A stretch of 60,996 nt of DNA, from NCBI GenBank assembly GCA_030426085.1, contig JAUHYW010000065.1, positions 1-60,996 of the forward strand. Reading direction: 5' to 3'. A model generated the notes under the pieces. That model ran no database searches. It was not told where the DNA came from and worked only from the letters and a program-made list of their open reading frames with translations. Shown here piece by piece: positions 26,152-60,866 of the stretch (position 1 is the stretch's first letter; each line of letters starts with the position of its first letter). The DNA comes from a bacterium. GTDB lineage: Bacteria; Myxococcota_A; Bradymonadia; UBA7976; UBA1532. Position numbers and translations under genes: made by a program.

Positions 26152-31686
<5,535 letters not shown>

Positions 31687-41909: not shown

Positions 41910-44774
41910 ATGAATCCGATCAGAGTTCTGGTGTGGCTGGCGCTGTGCGCGCTCGGCATGGGCGTCGTGGGCTGTGACGACGACCCGCAGGACCCCGTCG
42001 TCGACATGGGCGGCGAAGGCGAGGGCGAAGGCGAGGGCGAAGGCGAAGGCGAGGGCGAGGGCGAAGGCGAGGGCGAAGGCGAAGGTGAGGGCGAAGGCGA
42101 AGGCGAAGGTGAGGGCGAAGGCGAAGGTGAGGGCGAAGGCGAAGGTGAGGGCGAAGGCGAGGGTGAGGGCGAAGGCGAAGGTGAGGGCGAGGGCGAGGGC
42201 GAAGGCGAAGGTGAGGGCGAAGGCGAGGCCGCCTGCCAGGCCTACTGCGCCCTGATGGCCGAGAACTGCCCCGACAGCTACCCCGCCGAGGTCGACTGCA
42301 TGGCGGTCTGTGGCACCCTGCCGTTCGACGGCGAGGAGGGCGACGAGGCCGGCAACACCGTGCAGTGCCGCACCTACCACGCCGGCGTCGCCGCCGACGA
42401 TCCCGACCTGCACTGCCCCCACGCCGGCGCCAGCGGCGGCGGGGTCTGCGGCACCTACTGCGAGGCCTACTGCGCGATCACCGAAGACTCGTGCCCCGGC
42501 CTCTACCCCGACGCCGAGACCTGCGCCGCCGAGTGCGCCGCGCTGCCCCAGGACGGCGAGCCCGACACCACCGCCGGCGACTCGGTGCAGTGCCGCATCT
42601 ACCACGGCTCGTTCCCCGCGCTGGGTGATCCGGAGACCCACTGCCCGCACGCCAGCCCCACCGGGGAAGACACCTGCGGCGAGTACTGCGAGGTCTACTG
42701 CAACCGGGTCGAGGCCAACTGCGGCGACCTGTACCCCGACCGCGACACCTGCATGGACTTCTGCGGCCAGATCCCGCTCGACGGCGAGCCGGGTGACGTG
42801 GACGGCAACAGCGTGCAGTGCCGCATCTACCACGCGACCCTGCCCGCCGAGCAGGACGCCGACCTGCACTGCCCGCACGCCTACTTCAGCGGCGGCGGCG
42901 TCTGCGGCTCGTGGTGCGACAACTACTGCGATCGGGTCGAGGCCAACTGCGACGACCGGCTGGGCTACCCCGACCGCATCGCCTGCATGAACGCCTGCGA
43001 GGCGTTCCCCGACGACGGCGACCTGTTCGCGCTCGACGGCAACTCGGTGCAGTGCCGCATCTACCACGGCAGCGTGCCCTCGGCGCTCGACCCCGACCTG
43101 CACTGCCCGCACACCGCGCCCGACGGCGGCGACGGGGTCTGCGGCACCGGCTGCGAGGGCTATTGCAGCCAGATGATGACCCACTGCCCCGACACCTACG
43201 GCAGCCTCGAGCAGTGCATGGTCGCCTGCGAGGTCATCCCGGCCGACGGCGAGCAGGGCGACACCGAGGGCAACACCCTCCAGTGCCGGACCTACCACGG
43301 CAGCTTCCCCGCGGCGGTCGACCCGGTGCTGCACTGCCCCCACGCCGGCCTGACCGGGGGCGACGTGTGCGGCGAGTACTGCGACGTGCTGTGCGACTTC
43401 TACGACGCCCACTGCGGCGAGCAGGACCCCGCGGGCAACCTCACCTGCGGGGCCTCGTGCCTGCTGTACTCCACCGACGGCCAGGACGGCGACACCGTCG
43501 GTGACTCGGTGCAGTGCCGCATCTACCACGCCAGCTTCCCCGCGGCGGCCGATCCGGTGCTGCACTGCCCCCACGCCTCGGCCGACGGCGGCGGGGTCTG
43601 CATCGGGCCCAACCTGTGCGAGTCGTACTGCGACCAGATGATGGAGAACTGCCCCGGGGCCTACCCCGACGCCGAGACCTGCATGGACGTCTGCGACCTC
43701 TTCCCCACCGACGGGGCCGACGGCGACACCGACGGCGACACCGTGCAGTGCCGCATCTACCACGCCGGGGTCGCCGCGGACGACGCCGCGCTGCACTGCC
43801 CCCACGCCAGCATGAACGGCGGCGGGGCCTGCGGCAGCTACTGCGAGGCCTACTGCAACATCGTCGGCCAGACCTGCCCCGAGACCTACCCCGACGAGGA
43901 GACCTGCATGCAAGAGTGCGGGCAGCTGCCCGACGACGCCCCGTTCGACGCGGTGGGCGGCGACTCGGTGCAGTGCCGCACCTACCACGGCAGCTTCCCC
44001 GCGCTGGCCGATCCCGCGCTGCACTGCCAGCACGTCACCCCCGAGGGCGGCGGCGTGTGCGGCGACCGGTGCGAGGTCTACTGCAACCGCATGGACGCCA
44101 ACTGCCCCGACAGCTACCCCGACCGCGACACCTGCATGAACGCCTGCGCGCTGTTCCCGGCCGACGCGCCGGCGGGCAGCACCGAGGGCGACTCGGTGCA
44201 GTGCCGCATCTACCACGGCAGCTACCCCGCCTCGCTCGACCCGGCCCTGCACTGCCCCCACGCGGGCAACACCGGGGGCGGCGTCTGCGGCGGCTACTGC
44301 GAGGTCTACTGCCGGACCTACGCCGACCAGTGCGGCGAGACGGCGCCGATCTACCCCGACGAGGCGTCGTGCATGGCCGCCTGCGAGGCGTTCCCCACCG
44401 ACGGCGAGGACGGCACGGTCGAGGGCAACTCGGTGCAGTGCCGCATCTACCACGGCAGCTTCCCCGCCGCGGCCGACCCCGCGCTGCACTGCGCCCACGC
44501 CTCCATCGGCGGGGGCGGGGTGTGCGGCGGCATCTGCGACGCCTACTGCGACCAGCTCGACGCCCACTGCACCGGCGACGACGCCCAGTACCCCACCCGC
44601 GCCGCCTGCCGGGCGGGCTGCCTCGAGCTGAACCAGGACGGGCCCTTCGACGCCACCGGCGGCGACTCGGTGCAGTGCCGGGCGTATCACGCCAGCTTCC
44701 CGGCGGCGATGGATCCGGCCCTGCACTGCCCCCACGCGGGCTACGACGGCGGCGGCGTCTGCGTCGACGAGTGA
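41910..44774 (+). CDS. Lipoprotein with a Gly-Glu tract and eleven Cys/His repeats
   Basis: 954 aa. The signal ends GMGVVGC (Cys 22), followed by an Asp-rich stretch and a Gly-Glu dipeptide tract (35-106). From 107 to the end are eleven repeats of about 75-80 residues. Each has a C-x2-Y-C start, spaced cysteines, then the invariant blocks QCRxYH and LHCPHA (repeat 8 has LHCQHV, repeat 10 LHCAHA), and ends VCG. The regular Cys and His spacing suggests disulfide-stabilised domains or a metal/haem site, but this is inference. GGGGGGAGA precedes ATG 41910, a better start than the upstream ATG at 41871. The Gly-Glu tract is probably a flexible acidic spacer at the cell surface. Confidence 0.88.
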   Translation: MNPIRVLVWLALCALGMGVVGCDDDPQDPVVDMGGEGEGEGEGEGEGEGEGEGEGEGEGEGEGEGEGEGEGEGEGEGEGEGEGEGEGEGEGEGEGEGEGEGEGEGEAACQAYCALMAENCPDSYPAEVDCMAVCGTLPFDGEEGDEAGNTVQCRTYHAGVAADDPDLHCPHAGASGGGVCGTYCEAYCAITEDSCPGLYPDAETCAAECAALPQDGEPDTTAGDSVQCRIYHGSFPALGDPETHCPHASPTGEDTCGEYCEVYCNRVEANCGDLYPDRDTCMDFCGQIPLDGEPGDVDGNSVQCRIYHATLPAEQDADLHCPHAYFSGGGVCGSWCDNYCDRVEANCDDRLGYPDRIACMNACEAFPDDGDLFALDGNSVQCRIYHGSVPSALDPDLHCPHTAPDGGDGVCGTGCEGYCSQMMTHCPDTYGSLEQCMVACEVIPADGEQGDTEGNTLQCRTYHGSFPAAVDPVLHCPHAGLTGGDVCGEYCDVLCDFYDAHCGEQDPAGNLTCGASCLLYSTDGQDGDTVGDSVQCRIYHASFPAAADPVLHCPHASADGGGVCIGPNLCESYCDQMMENCPGAYPDAETCMDVCDLFPTDGADGDTDGDTVQCRIYHAGVAADDAALHCPHASMNGGGACGSYCEAYCNIVGQTCPETYPDEETCMQECGQLPDDAPFDAVGGDSVQCRTYHGSFPALADPALHCQHVTPEGGGVCGDRCEVYCNRMDANCPDSYPDRDTCMNACALFPADAPAGSTEGDSVQCRIYHGSYPASLDPALHCPHAGNTGGGVCGGYCEVYCRTYADQCGETAPIYPDEASCMAACEAFPTDGEDGTVEGNSVQCRIYHGSFPAAADPALHCAHASIGGGGVCGGICDAYCDQLDAHCTGDDAQYPTRAACRAGCLELNQDGPFDATGGDSVQCRAYHASFPAAMDPALHCPHAGYDGGGVCVDE
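42012..42227 (+). repeat. Hexanucleotide microsatellite (GGN GAR)n coding Gly-Glu
   Basis: About 36 repeats of GGC/GGT GAA/GAG inside the Cys/His lipoprotein gene, making an uninterrupted Gly-Glu dipeptide run. The unit is 6 bp, so length changes would keep the frame. Codon choice varies between GAA and GAG, so the tract is not perfectly homogeneous. Confidence 0.9.
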
Positions 44775-53179: not shown

Positions 53180-53971
53180 TCAGCCCGGCCCCGCCACCTT
53201 CCGGGCGACGATCCAGCGCTCGACCCCCGCCAGCAGCGCCTCGACCTCCTCCCGCTCCGAGCGCGGCCCCAGCAACCTCACCGCCTCTCGCAACCAGGAT
53301 CGCAGGGCGACGCTGTAGGCGACGTCCCGAGCGATCTGGTTCAGGCGGATGATGTCGGCCTTGTGCTGGGCCAGGCGGTTCGTCTTGTCATCCAACCGGA
53401 CGACGGTCTCTTCGTGCTCGTGCAGGAGCAGGTCCCGATCCAGCCCACACGTGGCCGCGATCACCGCCAGCCGATGGATCTGATCGCTGTCGAGCGGCCG
53501 ATCGGCGACCTCATAGCGCACGATCACCCGCGGCGGGCCCTCATCCGGGGCCGACGCGGCGAACGACTGCCGGGCCGCCGCGATGCCATCGGCCGTCGCC
53601 CGCAACGAACGCTCCAAGAGGTGCAGCCGGTCGCCCAGCCCACGGCGGACCCGAGACTCGAACCCCGCCAGCCACAGCGCCCGCTCGCTGCTCCGGGGAT
53701 CCAGCGGCGCGATGGCATCGAGCGGCACATCCCCTTCTGGCAGGTCGAACCCCAGCCCCCGCAGCGTGGGCCGGATCTCGCGCCGCAGCGCGCCCATCGC
53801 CTCGTCATCCCAGGCGCCGCCCCACTCGGCCTCCAGCGCCCGGCCCTCGGCCACCAGCCCCGCGACGTCCACCGGCTGATGCCGGCGCCGCCAGTACCGC
53901 TCCGGCGACACCAGCACCTGCCGCAGGCAGTCCATCTCGACCGTCAACTGCTCTCGCTCGGTGAGCGCCAT
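53180..53971 (-). CDS. Hypothetical protein divergent from the CHAT-STAND gene
   Basis: 263 aa, soluble, helical and Arg/Glu-rich. No domain is recognised. Notable segments are IVRYEVADRPLDSDQIHRL and a heptad-like DDKTNRLAQHKADIIRLNQIA that may form a short coiled coil. ATG 53971 is preceded by GGGAGGGG; the ATG at 54001 is less likely. It ends 8 bp from the convergent hydrolase and lies head-to-head with the CHAT-STAND gene, sharing a 144-bp intergenic region. A shared role is possible but unsupported by homology. Confidence 0.75.
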   Translation of the reverse strand: MALTEREQLTVEMDCLRQVLVSPERYWRRRHQPVDVAGLVAEGRALEAEWGGAWDDEAMGALRREIRPTLRGLGFDLPEGDVPLDAIAPLDPRSSERALWLAGFESRVRRGLGDRLHLLERSLRATADGIAAARQSFAASAPDEGPPRVIVRYEVADRPLDSDQIHRLAVIAATCGLDRDLLLHEHEETVVRLDDKTNRLAQHKADIIRLNQIARDVAYSVALRSWLREAVRLLGPRSEREEVEALLAGVERWIVARKVAGPG

Positions 53972-54037
53972 GCACCCCTCCCGGTCCGTGCCCGCCAGCA
54001 TGCCACCACGCCGCCCGCGCCGGCACCCCCACGCCCA

Positions 54038-54051: not shown

Positions 54052-54115
54052 CGCCCGAGTCATCGCCATCCGCCCGCCGTTGATCCATCCTGCACGCCCC
54101 CGCAGGAGACCGCCG

Positions 54116-57100
54116 ATGACCTTCCGCGACGCCGACCACCACGCCCCGCGCCCCGACGGCCCCCCCGCGCCCGCCGCCGCGCCCACCCGGGCCGCCGAGG
54201 CCTTCACCCGCGGTGGCCGCGACCGCCTGCGGGTGCTCGTCGTCACCGCCAACCCGCTCTCCGAAGACGCCCCGCTCGACATGCGCGGCGAGTGGGACGG
54301 CCTGTGCGCCGCCGCGAAGCAGGGCGGGCTGCCGGTGACCCTCTTCCGCCTGCAACCCCCGACCTTCGACGCCCTCAAAGGCGCCCTCGTCGCCTGCAAG
54401 CAGGCCGGCCGCCCCCCGCACGTCCTGCACTTCGCCGGCCACGGCGGCCCCCGCTCGCTGCTCTTCGAGGACCCCGTCGGCAACCCCCACAAGGTCGACC
54501 GGGAAGACATCACCAAGGCCCTGCGCGACGCCGGCGTCGAGATCGCCGTGCTCAACGCCTGCCACTCGGCCTCGTCCTCCACCCGGGGGCTGGCCCAGGT
54601 CCTCGCCGACGGCGACGACGCCCGGGGCCGCCCCGTCCCGGTCGCCATCGGCTACGACGCCCCCATCGCCGACCGCAGCGCCGTGGCCTTCGCCGGCGCG
54701 CTCTACCGGGCCTTGACCGAGGGTCAGCCCACCGACGTCGCCGTCGAGAGCGCCCGCACCGCGCTGGCGAAGGTCGACCCCCCGGCCGCCTTCCGCCACC
54801 TGCACCGCTACGGCGCCCTCGGCCACCGCATCCCCGGCCCGTTCGGCGCCGACGACGGCCCCCGCGTCTACGACGGCACCACCGCCGTCGGCCAGCGCCC
54901 CGAGGTCCCCCGCTTCTTCGGCCGGGCCGCCGAGTCGGCCCGCGTCGGCGGCTGGCTGGCCGACCCCAACCTGCGCGGCGTGGCCATCGTCGGCGTCGGC
55001 GGCATCGGCAAGACCACCCTCTCCCGGGCCGTCGCCCAGCGCCACGCGTGGCGCTTCCCGGGCGGCGTCGTCGAGGCCAGCGCCCGCATGACCTGGGACG
55101 CGCCCACCGCCCGCGAGCTGCTCGACCTCGCCCGGGCCGCGCTGCTGCTGCCCGCCGAAGAGCGCACCGGCCGCATCGTGCAACGCCTGCTGACCCACGC
55201 CGGCCAGCACCCCACGCTCATCGTCTTCGACAACCTCGAGACCCTGGCCGACGGCGCCCTCGAGCACCTGCTGCGCTTCGTCGAGCAGCTCCCGCTCAAC
55301 GGCAGCAAGGCCATCCTCACCCTGCGCCCCTCGCCCAAGGCCCTGCACGAGTGGCCCTGGATGAAGGTCGAGGCGCTCACCCGGGGCCTGGGCCGCCACG
55401 CCGGCCCGCGCTACGTGATGCACGTCGCCCGCCAGCGCGAGCTGACGCAGTTCGAGGTCGCGCCCGACGACCGGGGCCGCGTCGGCGGCCTGCCGGCGGC
55501 GCTCTCGGCGGCCGTCGCCGGCCACCCCAAGATGATCGAGGTCGCCGTGGGCCTCGTCGCCCAGGAGGGCCTGCCCACGCTGCGGGCCGAGCTGCCCGAG
55601 GTCGAGCGCCCCCCGGCCCAGGCCCGCAAGCTGGCCGCCGACGCGCTCGAAGACAAGATGCACGGGCTGTTCGCCTCGTCGACGGCGCTGCTCGACGAGG
55701 CCGGCCGGGCGCTTCTGCGGGCGCTGCCGGCCTTCCCGGTGGGCACGCTCGCCGAGCCGGAGGCCATCGCCGCGCTGGCTGCCCTGGCCGGCGCGGCCCC
55801 CGACGCCGAGGCCCCCGACCTCGAGGCCGCCGCCGACCGCTGGACCCGGGCCCGGCGGGGCGCGGTCCGGGCCGGGCTGATGCAGTGGGACGCCGCGCAC
55901 GGGCTGGCGTCCTTCCACCCCACCGTCGCCGAGTTCGCCCGGCGCGCGCACCCGCTGAGCCCGGACGAGGCGGCGGCGGTCGACGGCGCCCTGCTCGCCG
56001 CGGCGCTGGCCCATGTGCAGACCCACGCGCGCGACGGCTACCAGCTCGCCCGGCGGGTGGAGCACCTGTTCGCGGTGTTCGAGCGGGGCTGGCGGGCGAG
56101 CGGGCCGGGCACCGACGTCGGCAAGGCGATCGCCGGGGCGGTGGACGCCTGCGGGGCCTACCTGCACCGCGCGGGGCTGTGGTCGCTGATGATGCACTGG
56201 CGCGAGCGGCTCGAGGCCGCCGGGCACGACGAGGGCCCGGCCAAGGGCTGGCGGCTGCGGCGGGACGCCACCCTCCTGCGGGACCGGGGCGCATGGGAAG
56301 AGGCCCGTAAGCGGTATTCCGAAGCCGAAGCGATCTTCGAGGCGTGCGGTGAAAAAAAAGGTCTGAGCGGGGTGTGGTTCGACCTTTCCTACGTGGAGTC
56401 CCAGAGTGGGAACCACGATGAGGCCCGCCGCCTCCTCCGTGCATCCATCGCCGTCAAAGAAGAGCTGGGGGACCGCCAGGGACGGGCGGCCTCGCTGCAC
56501 CAGTTGGCTCGCATCGAGTTCCAACAGGGCCGCCCCGACGAGGCCCGCCGCCTCCTCCGTGCATCCATCGCCGTACTCGAAGAGCTGGGGGACCGCCAGG
56601 GACGGGCGGCCTCGCTGCACGAGTTGGCTCGCATCGAGTTCCAACAGGGCCGCCCCGACGAGGCCCGCCGCCTCCTCCGTGAATCCATCGCCGTTGACGA
56701 AGAGCTGGGGGACCGCCAGGGACGGGCGGCCTCGCTGCACCAGTTGGCGAGCATCGAGTTCCAGCAGGGCCGCCCCGACGAGGCCCGCCGCCTCCTCCGT
56801 GAATCCATCGCCGTCAAAGAAGAGCTGGGGGACCGCCAGGGACGGGCGGCCTCGCTGCACGAGTTGGCTCGCATCGAGTTCCAGCAGGGCCGCCCCGACG
56901 AGGCCCGCCGCCTCCTCCGTGAATCCATCGCCGTCGCAGAAGAGCTGGGGGACCGCCAGGGACGGGCGGCCTCGCTGCACCAGTTGGCGAGCATCGAGTT
57001 CCAACAGGGCCGCCCCGACGAGGCCCGCCGCCTCCTCCGTGAATCCATCGCCGTACTCGAAGAGCTGGGGGACCGCCGAGGGATGGCGATCTCACTCGGC

Positions 57101-58168
57101 ATGCTGGGCCAGATGGTGTTCGCCGCGGGCGAGCGCGCCGCCGGTGTCGGGATGCTGGAGCGCGCGGTCAGCCTCCTGAAGTCGCTGGGCGCCGACCGCG
57201 ATCTGGCCGCGGTCGAACAGACGCTCGAGATGATGCGGTCGATGGGCAATGCCCAGCCCTCCACCCCCTCCGGCCTCGCCGCCGCCCAGGCCGCCCTGCG
57301 CGCCGGCCGCCCCGCCAACGCGCTGGGCATCGCCGAGGCCGCCGAGCAATCCGCGCTCGACGCCGGCGACCACGCCGCCGCCGCCGCCGCCGTCCTCACC
57401 GGGCAGGCCCTCGCGCCCCTCGGCCGGGCCGACGACGCCCGCGCCGCCTTCACCCGGGCCGCCGAGCGCCTCGACGCCCTCGGCCAGACCGACAACGCCC
57501 GCGCCGTCCGCCAGGCCCTCGCCGCGCTCGACGCCGCCCCCTCCCCCGCCCTGCGGGCCCTCGCCGCCGCGCGGGCCGGCGACCTCGACCGGGCCGACGC
57601 GCTGGCCACCGCCGCGCTCGACGCCGGCCCGCCCGACCGGCAGCAGCTCGATCTGCTCACCGTCCGGGGTCAGGCCCGCGCCGGCCTGCGCCGCTTCGCC
57701 GAGGCCGACGCCGACCTCGACCGCGCCGCCCGCCTCGCCGCCCGGCTCGCAGCCCCCGACGAGCGGGACGACATCGGCGAGCAGATCCGCGCCCTGCGGC
57801 GGCAGATCGCCGAGCAACACGCCCGCCACGCGCTGACGACCGCCCCGCTCGCCGACCTGCTCGATGGCCCACAGCCCGCGCCTCAGCGGATCATGCAGCT
57901 CTCGTTGCGGCTCACCGCCCAGATCGAGGCCGGCGACCTCGACGGCGCCGCGGCCACCGCCGACGCGGCGCTGCCGCTGCTCGACGGGATCGACGACGCC
58001 GACCTGCGGCTGACGCTGTGGATCCCGACCATCCAGCTCCGGGCGCTGCGGGGCGACGCGGACGGCGCCCGGGCGCTGCTGGCCGAGGCGCAGGCGGCGG
58101 CCGAGGTCTCGCCCCGGGCGGCGGCGGTGGTGAAGCAGGTGGCCGAAGCCATCGGCGAGGGCGCGTAG
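54116..58168 (+). CDS. CHAT protease / STAND NTPase / TPR protein
   Basis: 1350 aa, no signal peptide. The N-terminal third (about 35-245) is a CHAT caspase-like peptidase: His109 in LHFAGHGGP and Cys149 in LNACHSAS form the expected catalytic dyad. A STAND/NB-ARC-type NTPase follows (about 265-560) with P-loop GVGGIGKTT (Lys299) and Walker B at 372 (LIVFDNLE). Residues about 560-745 are a helical linker, and about 766-1000 a TPR array built from six near-identical 40-residue units; more divergent helical repeats run to the end. The layout matches bacterial NLR-like sensors in which ligand binding by the repeats drives NTPase assembly and activates the effector. An anti-phage or cell-death role is inferred, not shown. 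AGGAGA precedes ATG 54116. Confidence 0.93.
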   Translation: MTFRDADHHAPRPDGPPAPAAAPTRAAEAFTRGGRDRLRVLVVTANPLSEDAPLDMRGEWDGLCAAAKQGGLPVTLFRLQPPTFDALKGALVACKQAGRPPHVLHFAGHGGPRSLLFEDPVGNPHKVDREDITKALRDAGVEIAVLNACHSASSSTRGLAQVLADGDDARGRPVPVAIGYDAPIADRSAVAFAGALYRALTEGQPTDVAVESARTALAKVDPPAAFRHLHRYGALGHRIPGPFGADDGPRVYDGTTAVGQRPEVPRFFGRAAESARVGGWLADPNLRGVAIVGVGGIGKTTLSRAVAQRHAWRFPGGVVEASARMTWDAPTARELLDLARAALLLPAEERTGRIVQRLLTHAGQHPTLIVFDNLETLADGALEHLLRFVEQLPLNGSKAILTLRPSPKALHEWPWMKVEALTRGLGRHAGPRYVMHVARQRELTQFEVAPDDRGRVGGLPAALSAAVAGHPKMIEVAVGLVAQEGLPTLRAELPEVERPPAQARKLAADALEDKMHGLFASSTALLDEAGRALLRALPAFPVGTLAEPEAIAALAALAGAAPDAEAPDLEAAADRWTRARRGAVRAGLMQWDAAHGLASFHPTVAEFARRAHPLSPDEAAAVDGALLAAALAHVQTHARDGYQLARRVEHLFAVFERGWRASGPGTDVGKAIAGAVDACGAYLHRAGLWSLMMHWRERLEAAGHDEGPAKGWRLRRDATLLRDRGAWEEARKRYSEAEAIFEACGEKKGLSGVWFDLSYVESQSGNHDEARRLLRASIAVKEELGDRQGRAASLHQLARIEFQQGRPDEARRLLRASIAVLEELGDRQGRAASLHELARIEFQQGRPDEARRLLRESIAVDEELGDRQGRAASLHQLASIEFQQGRPDEARRLLRESIAVKEELGDRQGRAASLHELARIEFQQGRPDEARRLLRESIAVAEELGDRQGRAASLHQLASIEFQQGRPDEARRLLRESIAVLEELGDRRGMAISLGMLGQMVFAAGERAAGVGMLERAVSLLKSLGADRDLAAVEQTLEMMRSMGNAQPSTPSGLAAAQAALRAGRPANALGIAEAAEQSALDAGDHAAAAAAVLTGQALAPLGRADDARAAFTRAAERLDALGQTDNARAVRQALAALDAAPSPALRALAAARAGDLDRADALATAALDAGPPDRQQLDLLTVRGQARAGLRRFAEADADLDRAARLAARLAAPDERDDIGEQIRALRRQIAEQHARHALTTAPLADLLDGPQPAPQRIMQLSLRLTAQIEAGDLDGAAATADAALPLLDGIDDADLRLTLWIPTIQLRALRGDADGARALLAEAQAAAEVSPRAAAVVKQVAEAIGEGA
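56352..56359 (+). other. A8 homopolymer at the junction before the TPR array
   Basis: An uninterrupted run of eight A in very G+C-rich coding DNA (GGT GAA AAA AAA GGT). Loss of one A gives an immediate TGA at 56364-56366; gain of one A gives TGA at 56419-56421, just where the repeats begin. Both would leave only the CHAT and NTPase parts. Confidence 0.9.
56401..57120 (+). repeat. Six-copy 120-bp tandem repeat encoding TPR units
   Basis: Copies begin at 56401, 56521, 56641, 56761, 56881 and 57001, each exactly 120 bp, almost identical. The first has a divergent first 20 bp and the last a divergent final 35 bp. Differences are limited to a CAA/CAG switch, GCA/GAA, the codon pair after GCC (variable codon at 56456, 56576, 56696, 56816, 56936, 57056), CAG/GAG, and GCTCGC/GCGAGC. 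This is a recent amplification with selected or shuffled variation. Confidence 0.95.
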
Positions 58169-59067: not shown

Positions 59068-60033
59068 CTACTCCGAGTCGCTGCGCGGCGGCTGGACCGG
59101 CTGGAGCGGCCGGCGGCTGCTGCCCGGCTCGACGTCGGGCGCGGGGGCCTCGGGCGCGGCGGCCTCGACGTCGCCCTCGACGTCGCCGTCGACCTCGCCC
59201 TCGGCCGCCGCCGCGGCGGCTTCGGCCTCGGCCTCGGCCGCGCGGCGGGCCTCCTCCAGCGCGGCGCGGGCCTCTTCGTCGAGGTCGATGTCGTCGGTGT
59301 CGACGTCCTCCTCGCCCCCGGCGCTGCCCCGGCGGCGGGCGGAGAACAGGGCGGCGAGCTGGGCGTCGTGCTCGAAGAGCGGGGCGAGCAGCTCGGCCCG
59401 CAGCTCGGCGTCGGCGATCATCACCACCACCCAGCCCACCACCTGGAGCAGCCCCACCTGCATCGCCTCGTAGGCCATGGCCAGCTCGGCCGCGCTGACG
59501 GCGCCGTCGGGGGCGAGCGCGTCGCGGTACAGCGGCAGGTGGGCCTCGACCCGGGCGACGAGGCGCTCCAGACCCAGCAGCTCGATGGCCTCGCCGTGCT
59601 CGGCCCGCATGAGCGGCATCATGTTCTCGACGACGGCCAGCTCTTCGTCATAGGGGATCTGGGTGATGGGGGCGACGCCGTTGGCGAAGAAGGCGTCGAC
59701 GAGCGCCCGGGCCGCGTCGCCCGACGGGGTGTTGGGGAAGCGCTCGGCCTCCTTGCCGGCGATGTGGGACATCTCGGCGATGTCGTCGTCGATGACGCGG
59801 TCGACCTTCCTCGCCTCGCCCCCGCCGCGGCCCACGCGGCGGAGCTGGCGCCGGCGGCGCAGGTCGACGTAGCGCCGCACCCGATCGAGGCCGGTCTCGA
59901 CCCGCTCGATGAGCTCGTCGAGGGCCTCGCGGATGGCGAGCATGCGCATGGCGAGCAGCACGGTGAAGAGCCGGCCCGGCGGGAATCGGCGGAGGCCGAA
60001 GATGCGATCGAGGGTGGTGAGTTCGGACTGCAT
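59068..60033 (-). CDS. Hypothetical protein with acidic Ala/Glu-rich tail
   Basis: 321 aa. The folded part (about 1-235) is helical, with basic clusters near 60-75 (RRRRQLRRVGRG) and mildly hydrophobic helices, for example MQVGLLQVVGWVVVMIADAEL, that may be a membrane or interaction helix. The tail (about 240-321) is Asp/Glu/Ala/Pro-rich and probably disordered. I recognise no family. ATG 60033 is preceded by GGAGGG; an ATG at 60045 is less likely. An upstream A+T-rich region (60140-60200) probably contains its promoter. Confidence 0.78.
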   Translation of the reverse strand: MQSELTTLDRIFGLRRFPPGRLFTVLLAMRMLAIREALDELIERVETGLDRVRRYVDLRRRRQLRRVGRGGGEARKVDRVIDDDIAEMSHIAGKEAERFPNTPSGDAARALVDAFFANGVAPITQIPYDEELAVVENMMPLMRAEHGEAIELLGLERLVARVEAHLPLYRDALAPDGAVSAAELAMAYEAMQVGLLQVVGWVVVMIADAELRAELLAPLFEHDAQLAALFSARRRGSAGGEEDVDTDDIDLDEEARAALEEARRAAEAEAEAAAAAAEGEVDGDVEGDVEAAAPEAPAPDVEPGSSRRPLQPVQPPRSDSE

Positions 60034-60045
60034 GGGTCCCTCCAT

Positions 60046-60330: not shown

Positions 60331-60866
60331 GGGGGGTGACCTCGTGTTCGAGCGATCGACCTCGGCGCGGAGCGGGGGGTGACCCCCTTCGAAGGGCAGT
60401 GACCTCGGCGCAGAACGGAGGGGGCGCGGATTCCGGGCGAACGACCTCTGACGATCGGCGACCCCCCGCGGCGTCCACCGGGTTCGACCTCGGACGAGCG
60501 CGGGGGGTGACCACATCACGACGAGGTCGATCGCTCGAACACGAGGCCACCCACCACTGTGCAGCGAGGTCGATCGCTCGAGCACGAGGTCACCCACCAC
60601 TCTCCAGCGAGGTCGATCGCTCGAGCACGAGGTCTCCCACCACTTTGGGGCGAGGTCGATCGCCCGAGCACGAGGTCGCCCACCATCTTGCAGCGAGGTC
60701 GATCGCTCGAACACGAGGTCACCCCCCACTTTGCAGCGAGGTCGATCGCTCGAGCACGAGGTCACCCACCACTTTGCAGCGAGGTCGATCGCTCGAACAC
60801 GAGGTCACCCCCCACTTTGCAGCGAGGTCGATCGCTCGAACACGAGGTCACCCCCCGTTCTCCGCC
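60331..60866. repeat. 43-bp tandem repeat, eight copies, with an inverted copy to the left
   Basis: Copies start at 60523, 60566, 60609, 60652, 60695, 60738, 60781 and 60824, exactly 43 bp apart. The shared core is GAGGTCGATCGCTCGARCAC followed by GAGGTCACCC. An inverted copy lies at 60331-60364, and partial, degraded inverted pieces lie to about 60520, so the left side can pair with the right. There are no unique spacers, and 43 is not a multiple of 3, so it is neither CRISPR nor coding. Confidence 0.9.

Follow-up and report, generated by a model that had tools for sequence, protein, structure and literature searches.

Is a tandem array of almost identical tetratricopeptide repeats (TPRs), in which only a few codons differ from copy to copy, a recognition surface undergoing diversification, or the product of a recent neutral amplification? 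The question is raised by a gene in a 60,996-nucleotide stretch of DNA (hereafter, the window) that comprises positions 1 to 60,996 of contig JAUHYW010000065.1 in the assembly GCA_030426085.1, from a bacterium of the Myxococcota_A (G000 in our genome set). The gene encodes a protein that combines a CHAT domain, a STAND-type NTPase and an array of 120-bp TPR units, and a first-pass annotation of the window had interpreted the array as an expanding, diversifying ligand-recognition device. We conclude, with a probability of roughly 0.58, that the protein is a bacterial receptor resembling NOD-like receptors (NLRs), with a recombining TPR sensor array able to change its specificity fast. The designation of diversifying recognition array is supported, most strongly by a locus in another genus, denoted g194.

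Architecture of the CHAT-STAND-TPR protein

The domain matches support an NLR-like architecture, with an N-terminal effector, a STAND NTPase and C-terminal TPR repeats, and bear out the immune-type character that the first-pass annotation had ascribed to the domains outside the array. The features of the gene are as follows.

54116..58168, + strand: CHAT-STAND-TPR protein gene, 1350 amino acids (aa); open reading frame (ORF) and Pfam matches, with AGGAG at 54104-54108 preceding the ATG at 54116
54341..54784, + strand: CHAT (caspase-like) domain, aa 76-223; Pfam CHAT, E 7.9e-13, 48.9 bits against a cut-off of 24
54911..55294, + strand: STAND-type NTPase core, aa 266-393; Pfam AAA_16, E 1.3e-7, 32.7 bits against a cut-off of 32.6
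56282..56401, + strand: diverged TPR unit ahead of the array; 53/120 bases match the array consensus, and the G+C content at third codon positions (GC3) is already lowered
56402..57121, + strand: six TPR units of 40 aa (120 bp) in tandem, of which units 2-5 are near-identical; aa identity 92.8% at an offset of 40, measured over 220 aa
56441..56443, + strand: variable codon 14 of unit 1 (TPR position 26), recurring every 120 bp as A,A,E,E,E,E
56455..56458, + strand: hypervariable 4-base block of unit 1, comprising the third base of codon 18 and codon 19 (TPR position 31), recurring every 120 bp to 57055-57058 as K,L,D,K,A,L
56501..56512, + strand: codons 34 and 37 of unit 1, both variable (TPR positions 6 and 9), recurring every 120 bp in units 1-5 as Q/E and R/S
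57122..58165, + strand: C-terminal helical region; helices in the AlphaFold2 (AF2) model, GC3 0.96

The CHAT domain contains the motifs HFAGHG (aa 105) and NACHS (aa 147), which we take to be the His/Cys dyad, and is a putative protease. In the NTPase core, GVGGIGKTT (aa 293) and LIVFDN (aa 368), presumably the Walker A and Walker B motifs, fit the GxGGxGKTT and hhhhD patterns of the STAND type; the AAA_16 match exceeds its cut-off by 0.1 bit, and those to NB-ARC (E 0.0058) and nSTAND1 are below theirs. The Pfam results for the complete protein also include TPR_MalT and weak PPR matches, and the scan revealed no DNA-binding domain.

The repeat units and their variable codons

Tandem Repeats Finder reported a repeat at 56416-57083 with a period of 120, 5.6 copies, 94% matches and a score of 1157. 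The first-pass annotation had described six exact, near-identical 120-bp units: the array is real and the unit spacing is exactly 120 bp, with a reading frame that begins at 56402, but units 1 and 6 are diverged. Any two of units 2-5 differ at 4-9 of 120 bases. Unit 1, with diverged codons 2-6, is separated from these four by 10-15 differences, and unit 6 differs from the other units at 21-34 bases, its last third being a diverged cap. The internal identity of the array exceeds the threshold of >85% over at least 100 aa used for fungal NLR repeats (PMC4986451; here and below, published work is cited from excerpts of the papers). When the array DNA was searched against its own genome, no second match was found at E 0.001 among the 40 of 148 candidates scored.

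The codon series AAA, CTC, GAC, AAA, GCA, CTC, noticed in the first pass, was recovered exactly at unit codon 19. The silent third base of the preceding valine codon changes with it, giving the blocks CAAA, ACTC, TGAC, CAAA, CGCA and ACTC. The alternation of Gln/Glu and Arg/Ser that had also been described holds in units 1-5 (Q,E,Q,E,Q at codon 34 and R,R,S,R,S at codon 37) and breaks down in unit 6, where the residues are M and Q; codon 36 changes silently along with the R/S difference (GCT CGC or GCG AGC). Among rotated units (n = 5), 9/120 columns are variable, four of them contiguous. Among the units, codons 14 (A/E) and 19 (K/L) are found in every one of their four possible pairings, which indicates reassortment or repeated mutation and agrees with the suggestion that variants had been shuffled. 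Silent changes cluster beside variable codons in three sparsely varying arrays that were chosen post hoc (6/9 against 1.6 expected, P 0.0008), and the same test across all nine arrays gave 26/43 against 20.9 expected (P 0.03), a pattern that we regard as only suggestive.

The array is also marked by a break in composition. GC3 is 0.98 in the N-terminal part of the gene, 0.84 in the array and 0.96 after it, and falls to 0.75 in the segment 56276-56515 that covers the diverged unit before the array.

Predicted structure and the position of the variable residues

The AF2 model, which was built from 24 sequences and covers aa 683-1350, has a mean predicted local distance difference test score (pLDDT) of 88.4, with 93-98 in the array blocks. 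In this model, each 40-aa unit forms a helix pair, with unit residues 5-22 in helix B and 25-41 in helix A. The best fold matches were TPR structures of LGN, several of them in complexes (for 4wnd, Z 33.2 and root-mean-square deviation 4.5 over 317 residues by VIA-align), so that the array region is predicted to adopt an LGN- or kinesin light chain-like TPR fold in which helix pairs of about 40 aa stack into a superhelix. The nearest solved chain by sequence was 4y6c (E 1.4e-15), labelled 'ANSERINA PUTATIVE KINESIN LIGHT chain', which we take to refer to Podospora anserina; chains 8k60 and 8jke of AfsR were also among the matches.

With the turn glycine numbered 15, the variable residues occupy TPR positions 6 (Q/E), 9 (R/S), 26 (A/E) and 31 (K/L/D/A). 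Two of these four, 6 and 9, coincide with the six published ligand-contact positions (2, 5, 6, 9, 12 and 13; PMC1261162), an overlap that is not significant (about 0.10, calculated by hand). Position 9 also aligns with the Asn of the LGN triplet, which anchors peptides (PMC3438535), and positions 26 and 31 may lie on the concave side.

A hypervariable array locus in genus g194

A phylum sample of 377 genomes was searched with the array only; since no more than nine candidates were scored in any genome, arrays are under-counted. The best match to the target units outside the own genome, among those scored, was a TPR protein of genus g194 (G291 C5; 68%), the array of which varies at positions 31 (N,T,R,R,L) and 9 (I,I,S,S,L). 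The N-domain of this protein family is present in all six g194 genomes, as a single copy in five and as two copies in G291, and recurs at 35% identity in an array protein of another genome (G001 C32).

In four g194 species, one TPR-protein locus is orthologous (L180, L182, L183 and L205) and consists of a diverged array of about 1 kb between conserved flanks. Among the proteins from G338, G367, G369 and G377, the N-domain is 91-97% identical, aa 200-450 only 38-44% and the last 50 aa 64-74%. At the nucleotide level, in 120-bp windows averaged over the six pairs, 33 of the 35 flank windows show 90-98% identity (84 and 89% in the other two), compared with 50-66% in the eight array windows (42-74% in single pairs) and 80% in one boundary window; 150-bp windows in three species gave 45-69% across the array. 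More than 3.2 kb downstream, G338 is 61-78% identical to the other two species in most windows. In the one control gene, a TPR gene whose P-loop motif and TPRs were both read from the translation, identity stays at 87-98% along the whole length in three of these species. As in the window, composition changes at the array: GC3 is 0.71-0.79 in the g194 arrays versus 0.87-0.95 in the N-domain (G338, G369, G367 and G291 C5).

Position entropy was calculated from 36 units of six parsed g194 proteins, with G378 left out. The most variable positions were 12, 13, 9 and 31, ranking first to fourth of 40, and the six published contact positions exceed the others in entropy at a nominal P of 0.002, the units being related. 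Position 31, at which the window array is hypervariable, is thus among the most variable in g194 as well. Since all six parsed proteins have six units, the g194 locus alters residues or whole arrays, not array length, and expansion as the main mode of change, which was also considered, is unsupported.

Near-identical arrays in the own genome and in relatives

The TPR_12 profile gave at least 125 matches in the own genome, with 150 of 787 candidates scored; once adjacent matches within an ORF had been combined and ten places left out, 64 distinct TPR ORFs were read. Near-identical arrays were found in three of the 64, all in immune-type proteins. The array protein on contig C79 combines EAD5, SIR2_2, CHAT and TPR, with 129-bp units and S/K/L at position 31, and the one on C170, at a contig edge, combines nSTAND1 with TPR and has a TIR match (E 2.2e-5) below its cut-off; another array, on C48 and likewise at a contig edge, is below the near-identity threshold. 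From the 58 further TPR ORFs listed, with four of more than 1600 aa left out, 29 taken in random order were scanned with Pfam at E 1e-5, a setting at which a TIR match like that of C170 would be missed and its nSTAND1 seen. CHAT or EAD5 was detected in 3/29, one of these being a CHAT-AAA_16-TPR paralogue with diverged repeats (C69). A Fisher test by hand gives about 0.004 for the association of near-identical arrays with immune-type domains, with small numbers and a domain list picked after the fact. The drop in GC3 at the array is shared with the C79 gene (0.95, 0.79 and 0.93 before, in and after the array) and was seen in 0/7 other TPR proteins of the genome.

Beyond this genome, near-identical arrays were found in G001 (C43, C32 and C56), G234, G125, G111 and G189. 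Compared by eye, the positions with at least three residues inside one array were -1, 6, 12, 13, 27/28, 31 and 34; in this comparison, helix-B numbers are off by one in 41-aa units, and the C79 array is represented by two units. In two G001 arrays that differ in framework codons, the block TATCGC is present in both, and the other variants there end in AGC in both. The array protein on G001 C43 carries a PDZ domain. In G234, the protein on C201 (L184) has a long N-terminal region with no Pfam match, followed by nine TPR units of 120 bp that are 97.5% identical and have S/D at position 13 and E/R/M at position 27.

Evidence against a diversifying receptor

A number of results weigh against the interpretation of the protein as a receptor with a recombining sensor. 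Within the array, variation is restricted to few codons, and positions 6 and 9 are published contacts, in agreement with the first-pass proposal of a diversifying recognition array; by simple counting, however, the pooled ratio of nonsynonymous to synonymous variation (pN/pS) in units 2-5 is 0.53, so that there is no excess of amino-acid change, and counting alone makes no case for positive selection. The array locus is known from a single genome of the species, with no polymorphism seen and no orthologue found: the CHAT-STAND part gave matches in 5/56 relatives, all partial and at 39% identity or less, the other genome of the genus not being among these, and 13 pattern matches in the genome_contigs collection, none confirmed as an orthologue, with records near the own genome possibly excluded. 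Assembly from short reads, if these were used, may have changed the copy number or the order of units. PADLOC matched no Avs model to the protein, only two generic TPR models at E 0.01.

The comparison with g194 has limits of its own. The N-domain of the g194 array protein has no Pfam match and differs from that of the window protein; position 26 ranks 24th of 40 in entropy; the number of units is constant; and repeats inside one array are mostly not near-identical. With constant copy number and diverged repeats, g194 shows turnover of the sensor and not the exact state of the window array. In other genomes, none of six array proteins scanned with Pfam (G001 C43 and C32, G234, G125, G111 and G189) has a CHAT, TIR, SIR2 or STAND match; the own genome is the only one in which near-identical arrays go with immune-type domains. 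This weakens any general connection between arrays and immunity and lowers our confidence in the receptor. The fall in GC3 is not general either, being absent in G125, G111 and G001 C43, where GC3 is about level, and reversed in G234, where the array is higher.

Alternative explanations

A neutral history, in which a single TPR was recently multiplied through slippage or unequal crossing-over and the codon differences reflect drift together with older variants, with no selection for new specificities, would account for the pN/pS of 0.53, measured in few units, and for the arrays of relatives that have scattered differences and no immune-type domains (G111, G125 and G001 C43). In the window array, the differences are concentrated in 9/120 columns with four contiguous, position 31 varies in C79 and in G291 C5 as well, the near-identical arrays of the own genome sit in immune-type proteins, and the orthologous g194 array is hypervariable, and we therefore judge this history somewhat unlikely. 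That the observed order K,L,D,K,A,L is unreal because short reads collapsed or reordered a longer array is rather unlikely and would be compatible with any of the other explanations. Other arrays do end at contig edges (G000 C48 and C170; G001 C32 and C56), and Illumina assemblies fail on comparable arrays in Podospora (PMC12222747), but the window array does not reach a contig edge, is bounded by a unique cap at either end and has variants that stay in frame, and an artefact of this kind would touch the number and order of the variants, not their existence.

The protein could instead be a sensory STAND regulator of the MalT or AfsR type, responding to a metabolic or developmental signal with an array tuned to one ligand and not diversifying. 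The AfsR chains 8k60 and 8jke among the sequence matches, the TPR_MalT matches and the defined peptides bound by similar TPR folds (LGN, Rap and NprR) point in this direction; we consider it quite improbable, given that Pfam detects no DNA-binding domain, that CHAT is the likely output and that EAD5, SIR2_2, CHAT and nSTAND1 accompany the genome's other near-identical arrays. Rewriting of array adenines by the reverse transcriptase of a diversity-generating retroelement (DGR) is extremely improbable. The own genome has five RVT_1 matches (L084-L088, on C7, C108, C112, C70 and C73), four of them over the cut-off, and two (C70 and C73) with an IG..SQ motif that we take to be the motif of DGRs. 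None of the five is on the contig of the array, only 3/19 adenine-majority columns vary, and six non-adenine columns vary too; on these columns we reject a DGR target, no search for template and variable repeats having been made. STAND proteins are diversified by DGRs elsewhere (PMC10907252). A modular one-residue code of the TALE or PPR type was also rejected, the weak PPR matches being read as by-products of TPR similarity; the excerpt of PMC11417379 mentions no TPR precedent for such a code.

A proposed mechanism

In the receptor that we favour, the N-terminal CHAT domain would be a protease-like effector, the STAND NTPase the switch and the C-terminal TPR superhelix the sensor, the latter made of recently copied, near-identical LGN-type repeats of 40 aa. 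Recombination among the units would hold the framework constant, and alternative residues, reassorted among units, would persist at a few sites in or close to the ligand groove (6 and 9 in helix A, 26 and 31 in helix B); we propose that the array could thereby gain new binding specificities quickly. Binding of a ligand, possibly a phage or non-kin protein, would release the NTPase, leading to oligomerisation and to activation of the protease; by cleaving a partner, the protease may then cause the death or arrest of the cell. The architecture, the repeats, the restricted variable sites, the composition break and the hypervariability of a related array elsewhere are observed; the concave location of positions 26 and 31, the ligand, the mode of activation, cell death and a role in phage defence or kin recognition are inferred. 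A plausible model for the output is a fungal two-gene cluster in which a TPR-bearing CHAT protease activates a gasdermin (PMC12881547).

More tentatively still, and with the balance leaning against it, TPR arrays could serve across the phylum as exchangeable specificity cassettes attached to a constant effector part. Recombination, with no reverse transcriptase involved, would swap or reshuffle whole arrays, so that every lineage would have a surface of its own for phage or self/non-self recognition; g194 would then be one of these loci, and the window protein would be a CHAT-STAND member whose array has only just been amplified.

Other features of the window

Immediately upstream of the CHAT-STAND-TPR gene lies a divergent neighbour.

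53183..54001, - strand: protein of 273 aa with a weak EAD5-like C-terminal domain; Pfam EAD5, E 0.0054, 17 bits, below the cut-off of 27

In BLASTP comparisons, this protein aligns with the EAD5 region of an EAD5-NB-ARC-TPR protein of the own genome (36% identity across 86 aa, E 3e-6); the C79 protein, another carrier of EAD5, gave no match of note (best E 0.43). It is a possible partner of the CHAT-STAND-TPR protein.

Elsewhere in the window, 59071-60045 (- strand) encodes a 325-aa protein that has no Pfam match at E 0.001 and belongs to a multicopy family, for which the own genome yielded 12 matches and the other genome of the genus 19. Both ends of the contig carry tandem arrays (1-1300, 87 bp units; 60522-60853, 43 bp units), which may explain why the contig ends there, and long tandem repeats also occupy 26822-28081 (144-147 bp) and 42575-44574 (228-465 bp).

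Comparison with known systems

In a limited literature search of titles and abstracts, no such arrays were described for bacterial CHAT-STAND proteins, which does not prove their absence. Antiviral STAND proteins of the Avs and bNACHT groups (PMC10907252) are, like the window protein, tripartite with a C-terminal sensor that can consist of TPRs; the Avs are said to bind phage proteins that are conserved, in contrast to the window array, which looks changeable, and the output predicted for the window protein is CHAT. The DGR-diversified STAND sensors of the same study share with it a diversified C-terminal sensor, and CHAT is among the domains named there, but they have a C-type lectin fold, in contrast to TPR repeats that bear no adenine signature. 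The conflict systems of multicellular prokaryotes, which combine a constant core with variable modules and effector-associated domains (EADs; PMC7159879 and PMC8195603), have in common with the window locus STAND, TPR, an EAD (here, the weak EAD5-like neighbour) and fast-varying modules; near-identical TPR arrays with restricted variable codons are not described for them in the excerpts of these papers. LGN/Pins and kinesin light chain have TPRs of similar length (about 40 aa), and the Asn of the LGN triplet corresponds to position 9; unlike the window protein, they are eukaryotic, have defined ligands and consist of repeats that are mutually diverged.

There is a close likeness to fungal NLRs such as Podospora HNWD and the NB-ARC/TPR proteins (PMC4986451 and PMC12222747), with which the window protein has in common an effector, an NTPase, a sensor of near-identical repeats and few variable positions. 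In fungal NLRs whose repeats have high internal conservation, positive selection is reported to act on TPR positions of the concave side and the number of repeats to be polymorphic (PMC4986451); concerted evolution is inferred here as it is for those repeats (PMC4986451 and PMC12222747). Fungal receptors with WD40-type repeats help to determine which partners may fuse. The window protein is bacterial, has a CHAT effector and units of 40 aa where those of fungal NLRs are mostly 42 aa, and shows no significant positive selection; it would work like these receptors without being a member of their group. A bacterial CHAT-STAND protein thus shares the fungal NLR design of near-identical units with few hypervariable positions, and together with the g194 locus it suggests that bacteria, too, build fast-changing intracellular receptors through repeat recombination. 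The g194 locus is a concrete place at which to study what these receptors recognise and whether their role is phage defence or the recognition of kin.

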